From positions 1 to 64,000 of the forward strand of contig JAGDXP010000018.1 of assembly GCA_023256475.1 (NCBI GenBank): DNA of 64,000 nt. Reading direction: 5' to 3'. The notes beneath the pieces are model-generated. The model ran no database searches. It saw nothing but the letters and a program-made list of their open reading frames with translations, and was not told the origin of the DNA. Origin of the DNA: Thermoplasmata archaeon (GTDB lineage Archaea; Thermoplasmatota; Thermoplasmata; Thermoplasmatales; GCA-001856825). This document shows, piece after piece, positions 51,191 through 51,927 of the stretch (the first letter of the stretch is position 1; every line of letters begins with the position of its first letter). Both the position numbers and the translations under genes were made by a program.

Positions 51191-51268
51191 TCACGTATTT
51201 CTATTATTCATAATTGCCTGAATTTGGTAAATCCTATAAAATTAAATAGATAACATATATTACAAATA

Positions 51269-51327
51269 GAATGATGAAAAGAGGGTCAGCTGAGCTAATG
51301 CTGTGATGACCCCTATGAGTACTGAAG
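51269..51327 (+). ncRNA. C/D box guide sRNA (double guide)
   Basis: C ATGATGA (51271-51277), 12 nt, D' CTGA (51290-51293), 9 nt, C' GTGATGA (51303-51309), 12 nt, D CTGA (51322-51325); symmetric archaeal spacing. Confidence 0.85.
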
Positions 51328-51336
51328 GTGATAAAA

Positions 51337-51927
51337 ATGAAAAGCATTGAAGAATTGGCTAAGAAGGCTAAAGAATTAAAAGAAAAAGGGTTAAGTGACA
51401 AGGAAATTTCAACGGAAATGCATCTATCATTGAACACTGTCCTTTGGCTCCTAAGTGGAGAATATAAAGGTAAAGAGGCACCAAGGGATGTTAAAATAGG
51501 GTGGAGGAGCATAGGAGTTTACAGCTCCAGAATCTATTACCTCTCAGAAATTATGGCAGACATAATAAATGAGGAACTCTATAGCAGAGGCATTGAACCT
51601 GATACAATATTAGGGGTTACAATAAATGGAATACCATTTGCAACATTCATATCGGACATACTTGGGAAAGAGATTGCCATATTCAGGCCATCCCCACATA
51701 AAGGTGAAGGATCATTCTCCAGCAATTATGCTAAGGTAACGGGGAAGAAAGTTGTTATAGTGGACGACGTAGTTAGTACAGGTGAAACGGTATCAAAAGC
51801 AATAGAGGCTGTTAAATCTGAAGGTGGAGAGCCGGTTCTTATAGTTGTAATTGTAAATAAAACGGACAAAGATGAAATTCTAGGTGTACCCATTAGGGGG
51901 CTAATAAGGGCAAGGATGATTGGATAA
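51337..51927 (+). CDS. gfcR: HTH + phosphoribosyltransferase-like regulator (GfcR / PyrE-like)
   Basis: N-terminal HTH (KGLSDKEISTEMHLSLNTVLWLLSG) and PRPP loop VVIVDDVVSTGETVSKA. Start moved to ATG 51337 with GGTGAT upstream. Confidence 0.88.
   Translation: MKSIEELAKKAKELKEKGLSDKEISTEMHLSLNTVLWLLSGEYKGKEAPRDVKIGWRSIGVYSSRIYYLSEIMADIINEELYSRGIEPDTILGVTINGIPFATFISDILGKEIAIFRPSPHKGEGSFSSNYAKVTGKKVVIVDDVVSTGETVSKAIEAVKSEGGEPVLIVVIVNKTDKDEILGVPIRGLIRARMIG

Follow-up and report, generated by a model that had tools for sequence, protein, structure and literature searches.

The region immediately upstream of gfcR in the 64,000-nucleotide stretch of archaeal DNA analysed here (hereafter the window) raises the question of whether a closely spaced series of short boxes constitutes a guide RNA and, if so, which RNAs it would modify. 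We consider it very probable that these boxes belong to a C/D box sRNA of the sR-tMet kind that carries two guides, with one guide directing methylation of C34 in the precursor of elongator tRNA-Met and the other directing methylation of C1920 in 23S rRNA. The genome that holds the window comprises 1.39 Mb in 28 contigs and is 89% complete.

Box architecture of the sRNA locus

An earlier note on this DNA had claimed four canonical boxes with 12-nt guide spacers, and re-reading of the locus on the plus strand gives this same arrangement (C-12-D'-9-C'-12-D) at 51271-51325, with the following features:

51271..51325, + strand: C/D box sRNA, C box to D box, 55 nt (sequence pattern, conservation, simulation, Rfam)
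51271..51277, + strand: C box ATGATGA (read from sequence)
51278..51289, + strand: D' guide AAAGAGGGTCAG, 12 nt (positions 2-11 give a 10-bp match to helix 69 of relatives' 23S rRNA)
51290..51293, + strand: D' box CTGA (read from sequence)
Between D' box and C' box, + strand: 9-nt spacer (read from sequence)
51303..51309, + strand: C' box GTGATGA (read from sequence)
51310..51321, + strand: D guide CCCCTATGAGTA, 12 nt (positions 2-11 give a 10-bp match to elongator pre-tRNA-Met)
51322..51325, + strand: D box CTGA (read from sequence)

The C (RUGAUGA), D' (CUGA), C' and D boxes thus occur in the order that is characteristic of archaeal C/D box RNAs, and both guides have a length of 12 nt, where about 10-12 nt upstream of D' or D is usual. 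The N+5 rule places the base predicted to be modified at C34 in the genome's own pre-tRNA-Met and at C1920 in the 23S rRNA of relatives. When both strands were scanned, the full four-box architecture matched the window only once, and 300 first-order Markov simulations gave an expectation of 0.0 matches per window for the strict pattern and 0.027 for a relaxed pattern. All of the sequence tests applied thus identify the element as an archaeal C/D box guide RNA.

The D guide and the elongator tRNA-Met precursor

ARAGORN, applied to the Rfam-tRNA loci of the window's genome, identifies three tRNAs with a CAU anticodon: the initiator (L025), a tRNA-Ile2-like species (L002) and elongator tRNA-Met (L021; G000:C23:122658-122759), the last of which carries a 29-nt intron. 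The D guide binds GACTCATAGGGA, a segment of the elongator precursor, through exactly 10 Watson-Crick pairs at guide positions 2-11. Position 5 (N+5) lies opposite C34, and the two end positions, 1 and 12, are mismatched. The target, ACUCAUA|GGG, spans the exon-intron junction and consists of A31-A37 followed by GGG, the first bases of the intron, such that three of the ten pairs are intronic. Because GGG opens the intron, the full match exists only in the unspliced precursor. The spliced elongator tRNA offers 7 pairs, the initiator and tRNA-Ile2(CAU) offer 6 Watson-Crick pairs each (7 with a G-U), and the next-best tRNA in the genome scores 8. Duplex energies follow the same division, at -17.9 kcal/mol for the precursor, -8.2 for the spliced tRNA and about -8.5 for Ile2 and the initiator.

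These results bear on several earlier predictions. The D guide had been assigned to C34 of a CAU-anticodon tRNA through a literal 12-mer, TACTCATAGGGG. A search of the genome's own tRNAs and rRNAs upholds the target and the base, in that elongator tRNA-Met carries a match centred on C34, but the match extends over 10 bp and the literal 12-mer occurs in no tRNA. With 0-1 mismatch, TACTCATAGGGG is found in this genome only in the sRNA itself and at scattered sites that are, as far as checked, neither tRNA nor rRNA. The prediction that the initiator would be discriminated against by pairing over only about 6 nt agrees with the 6 Watson-Crick pairs found, and tRNA-Ile2(CAU), which likewise has to be avoided, is avoided to the same extent. 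Since the last three D-guide pairs are intronic, the pairing implies that C34 methylation must precede splicing and that the initiator and tRNA-Ile2(CAU) would be spared. Therefore, the D guide almost certainly directs 2'-O-methylation of wobble C34 in elongator tRNA-Met before splicing.

In several DHVE2 genomes (L157, L166, L172), tRNA-Ile2(CAU) likewise has an intron in its anticodon loop. The start of this intron is not GGG, so that Ile2 remains distinguishable from the elongator tRNA as a target.

Conservation of the D guide and of the intron start

Among the 300 genomes of the class that were sampled, 83 contain the pattern RTGATGAN{3,9}TATGAGNNCTGA, and its reversed control gave almost no matches. 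The search pattern fixed TATGAG only, and D-guide positions 2-11 nevertheless read CCCTATGAGT in 84 of the 85 matches listed, whereas all four bases occur at position 1 (G/T/A/C) and at position 12 (G/A/C/T) among the same matches. Fixed positions 2-11 with drifting positions 1 and 12 are the footprint expected of a 10-nt guide-substrate duplex, and this behaviour fits the 10-nt limit on guide-substrate pairing (Yang 2016, as cited in PMC7089733). The recurrence of this drift across many families amounts to an evolutionary confirmation of that limit.

The intron shows a corresponding constancy. The elongator intron starts with GGG in all 29 guide-bearing genomes in which the tRNA was seen, namely the window's genome, ten close relatives and eighteen others. 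The situation differs in f3, a family of the same order (f1, f2, f3, f9 and similar names are arbitrary labels of the genome sample). More than 40 f3 genomes were included in the 300-genome pattern search and none has a canonical guide match, a search of 18 f3 genomes with a relaxed C' box produced only two matches, both unconvincing, and the elongator intron starts with AAG, TGC or GGA in 12 of 12 cases. The switch from GGG to AAG in this family without the canonical guide constitutes a natural experiment on the co-evolution of guide and intron, and a C34 guide complementary to the AAG-type intron start of f3 would carry CUUAUGAGU. Some genomes that lack a strict guide match keep GGG introns, and a few of those carry a guide with a variant C' box. 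The existence of such variants makes 83 of 300 a lower bound.

Some representatives have distinctive features. Two C34-guide matches are present in each of two genomes, G179 (L231, L232) and G303 (G303:C89, G303:C136). The copies in G179 have different flanks, and the second copy in G303 could be an assembly duplicate. Family f9 sRNAs (L179-L203) have a complementary outer stem around the C and D boxes (e.g. GGCCG...CGGCC), a C box that is often GATGAAGA, and D' guides that are not conserved.

The D' guide and 23S rRNA helix 69

Positions 2-11 of the D' guide form ten Watson-Crick pairs with AUGACCCUCUUA in the complete 23S genes of nine relatives; these ten guide bases, AAGAGGGTCA, pair with TGACCCTCTT of helix 69 (H69) in all nine of the 23S genes found. 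The target reads AUGAC*CCUCUUA and, on alignment to E. coli rrlA, its N+5 base is C1920, a number that we take to follow the standard E. coli numbering, the rrlA copy aligned being one base longer. At least eight families share the ten D' bases, and positions 1 and 12 are again free to vary among them. For a 10-bp match in about 4.4 kb of rRNA, the chance expectation is about 0.004. Our search of the window's own genome found no 23S gene in the assembly, and its 16S gene is incomplete and ends at a contig end, so that the D' target rests on the 23S genes of relatives. Under this proposal, H69 of the missing 23S gene would read UGACCCUCUU.

The second target predicted through the D' guide is best equated with the 10-bp H69 site of relatives, with N+5 at C1920, but the literal target sequence, CTGACCCTCTTT, was in no rRNA or tRNA seen. 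At 0-1 mismatch, this sequence occurs in the genome in the sRNA itself and at scattered sites that are, as far as checked, outside tRNA and rRNA. An exact copy at C11:55-66 was dismissed as AT-rich DNA without rRNA character. The best tRNA for the D' guide in this genome is tRNA-Arg(TCT), with 10 pairs that include 2 G-U, which we judged to be weaker than H69. In 16S rRNA, the best sites for either guide reach about 8 Watson-Crick pairs and are unconserved.

H69 is almost invariant, and hence conservation of the target alone adds little to the argument. The D' guide probably directs 2'-O-methylation of C1920 in H69. An unlikely alternative is that the D guide alone is functional, acting at C34, while the D' guide has no target and persists by chance or for structural reasons. 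A review discussing Pyrobaculum data notes that sRNAs targeting tRNAs usually carry a second guide without a target (PMC7994747), which makes a combination of tRNA and rRNA targets in one RNA unusual. Moreover, all of f9 and part of f2 (genus g17 and others) have a D' guide that is altered or lacks a target, and in some members of f1 it has one mismatch, at position 9. When the variant f2/g17 guides were compared with rRNA, they gave 8-9 pairs at most and no convincing target. These alterations mean that the C1920 function is dispensable or replaceable. However, an orphan guide would not account for the invariance of positions 2-11 across eight or more families in which positions 1 and 12 are variable, nor for a match to H69 over exactly 10 bp with a legal N+5 base at the low chance expectation given above. 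We therefore favour the dual-guide reading, in which the D' half is probably older than the changes in f2/g17, f9 and f1, though not indispensable. If so, the class-wide target set would unite the wobble base of elongator tRNA-Met with a base of the H69 hairpin, which touches tRNA at the subunit interface. Dense predicted methylation in H69 is known for hyperthermophilic archaea (PMC4644070).

The variant f2 loci (L065, L068, L069, L071, L073, L102, L219-L222) have D' guides swapped for GGGCG or GGGTTG types, and that of L073 is complementary over about 8 nt to the D-guide region of its own RNA. Separately, the 23S gene L250 (G106) contains an insertion of ~70 nt right after CTCTTAA, from position about 1949 on and beside the D' target (H69-H71), that looks like an rRNA intron.

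The sRNA as the leader of gfcR

Three further features define the context of the sRNA:

51242..51248, + strand: TATA box TTAAATA (begins 29 nt before the C box)
51326..51332, + strand: gfcR Shine-Dalgarno sequence AGGTGAT (abuts the D box)
51337..51927, + strand: gfcR, 196 aa, regulator with HTH and phosphoribosyltransferase-like parts (GfcR/PRK02277 family match)

The claim that the D box almost abuts the ribosome-binding site of gfcR is correct, in that AGGTGAT starts at 51326, right after the D box, and is followed by the gfcR ATG start at 51337. Genes for class I LysRS and then MoaC lie downstream of gfcR. The upstream gene, encoding NAD(P)H-hydrate dehydratase/epimerase, is divergently oriented, and thus the sRNA opens its own transcription unit. 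In 21 of 21 gfcR-linked loci compared, the distance from the start of a TATA-like box to the C box downstream is 27-31 nt, and with the usual archaeal spacing transcription would start only a few bases from the sRNA 5' end.

Every f1 and f2 genome examined (L064-L073, L102, L123, L210-L224) has the sRNA immediately upstream of gfcR, with the Shine-Dalgarno sequence located 0 to about 8 nt after the D box. Conservation of the boxes upstream of gfcR, which the earlier note had offered as a test, accordingly holds in both families of the DHVE2/Aciduliprofundum group. Judged from these sequences, the gfcR leader in the window's family and its sister family is essentially the sRNA. Among the other sampled sRNA loci, those outside f1 and f2, gfcR adjoins the sRNA in none. 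The GfcR protein of the window shares 98% identity with its counterpart in 'Euryarchaeota archaeon CPBay_Spr30G08_8' and about 60-65% with DHVE2/Aciduliprofundum proteins, which places the genome in the Thermoplasmatota.

From architecture, complementarities and conservation that are directly observed, we infer the following course of events. Transcription would start at the TATA promoter of the sRNA, which would form the opening segment of the gfcR transcript and would assemble with L7Ae, Nop5 and fibrillarin into a predicted RNP. The D guide would pair over 10 nt with unspliced elongator pre-tRNA-Met and direct 2'-O-methylation of C34 before splicing, sparing the initiator and tRNA-Ile2(CAU), and the D' guide would pair over 10 nt with H69 of 23S rRNA and direct the same modification at C1920 (E. 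coli numbering).

Given this arrangement, it seems appropriate to question whether the sRNA also controls the gene that it precedes. Overlap of a C/D box gene with the 5' end of an ORF accounted for 7% of cases, and in reporter tests such genes reduced the expression of the ORF (Tripp 2017, as reviewed in PMC7994747). Like the genes covered by that review, the sRNA described here abuts a downstream start; the difference is that its position is fixed across two families, with a near-constant distance to the TATA box. Furthermore, L7Ae of Sulfolobus represses mRNAs through kink-turns in their leaders (PMC5539422). Together, the reporter results and the leader repression by L7Ae make control of gfcR possible. 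One quite doubtful form of such control is a regulatory coupling wherein each transcript is either trimmed to a methylation RNP or translated into GfcR. Trimming would lose or hide the Shine-Dalgarno sequence that abuts the D box, and the supply of L7Ae, Nop5 and fibrillarin would set the level of GfcR, a phosphoribosyltransferase-like transcription regulator. If true, tRNA and rRNA modification capacity would be linked to metabolism. The gfcR leader, which is constant, represents a candidate for translation controlled by a C/D RNP.

The alternative view, that the RNA is mainly a cis-acting leader whose kink-turns bind L7Ae or the whole RNP to control gfcR translation, with guiding only secondary, appears improbable. 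It would accommodate both the Sulfolobus precedent and the way in which the sRNA fills the leader from promoter to Shine-Dalgarno sequence in two families. However, the same RNA and D guide are kept in many families without a neighbouring gfcR, which identifies the guide as the conserved part.

Other targets for the D guide and chance resemblance

It is very improbable that the D guide of this sRNA acts instead on another CAU tRNA, either the initiator or tRNA-Ile2, or on rRNA. Although CUCAUA is common to all three CAU tRNAs, the other two stop at six Watson-Crick pairs, and the best rRNA sites of relatives reach ~8 Watson-Crick pairs or depend on G-U. In addition, only the GGG of the elongator intron accounts for the CCC that is conserved in the guide. 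Finally, the individual boxes are short, but a functionless chance resemblance can be dismissed with 0.0-0.03 matches expected per window and a locus that is conserved even though the GfcR proteins are only ~60% identical.

Relationship to known guide RNAs

The closest functional parallel to the D guide is sR-tMet of Haloferax volcanii, a C/D sRNA that targets the intron-containing precursor of elongator tRNA-Met and guides Cm34 (Joardar et al. 2011, as described in PMC4033218 and PMC5372725). The two RNAs share this substrate but differ in lineage and gene context, and the likeness drawn from these descriptions concerns the C34 guide. Pyrococcus sR49 is a predicted tRNA-Met Cm34 guide, and so has the same predicted target as the D guide described here; 18 archaeal candidates for the C34 site have been compiled (Grosjean 2008; PMC2584109).

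An Rfam scan at gathering score returned no match over the sRNA locus. Below this threshold, the best score is that of RF01133 (Pyrococcus sR3), at 37.9 bits (E 1.7e-8; gathering score 41). The alignment to this model covers the boxes and, within the D' guide, GGGUC, but the D guide of sR3 is different and would not pair with tRNA-Met. RF01126 (sR41) scores 27.0 bits, where its gathering score is 54. Its consensus D guide, CCCUAUGAG-N-N-CUGA, equals the guide in the window at positions 3-11, whereas its D' guide is unrelated; we do not equate sR41 with the sR49 of published papers.

H69 is likewise an established site for archaeal C/D sRNAs, as with the H. volcanii RNA that guides Gm1950 (E. 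coli 1909) in 23S rRNA (PMC2584109). The present sRNA would act on the same rRNA hairpin but at C1920, and joins this activity with a tRNA guide in one RNA. In bacteria, C1920 is methylated by TlyA without RNA. Within the literature searched, no paper joined Thermoplasmata, C/D box sRNA and tRNA. Guiding of C34 is an already known function, and it is the dual tRNA/rRNA targeting and the fixed position as the gfcR leader that are unusual.

One minor observation concerns the assembly. Positions 1-55 of the window are part of an initiator tRNA-Met gene, and the complete copy (L025) is located at the end of contig C27. These are probably one locus that has been split by the assembly.
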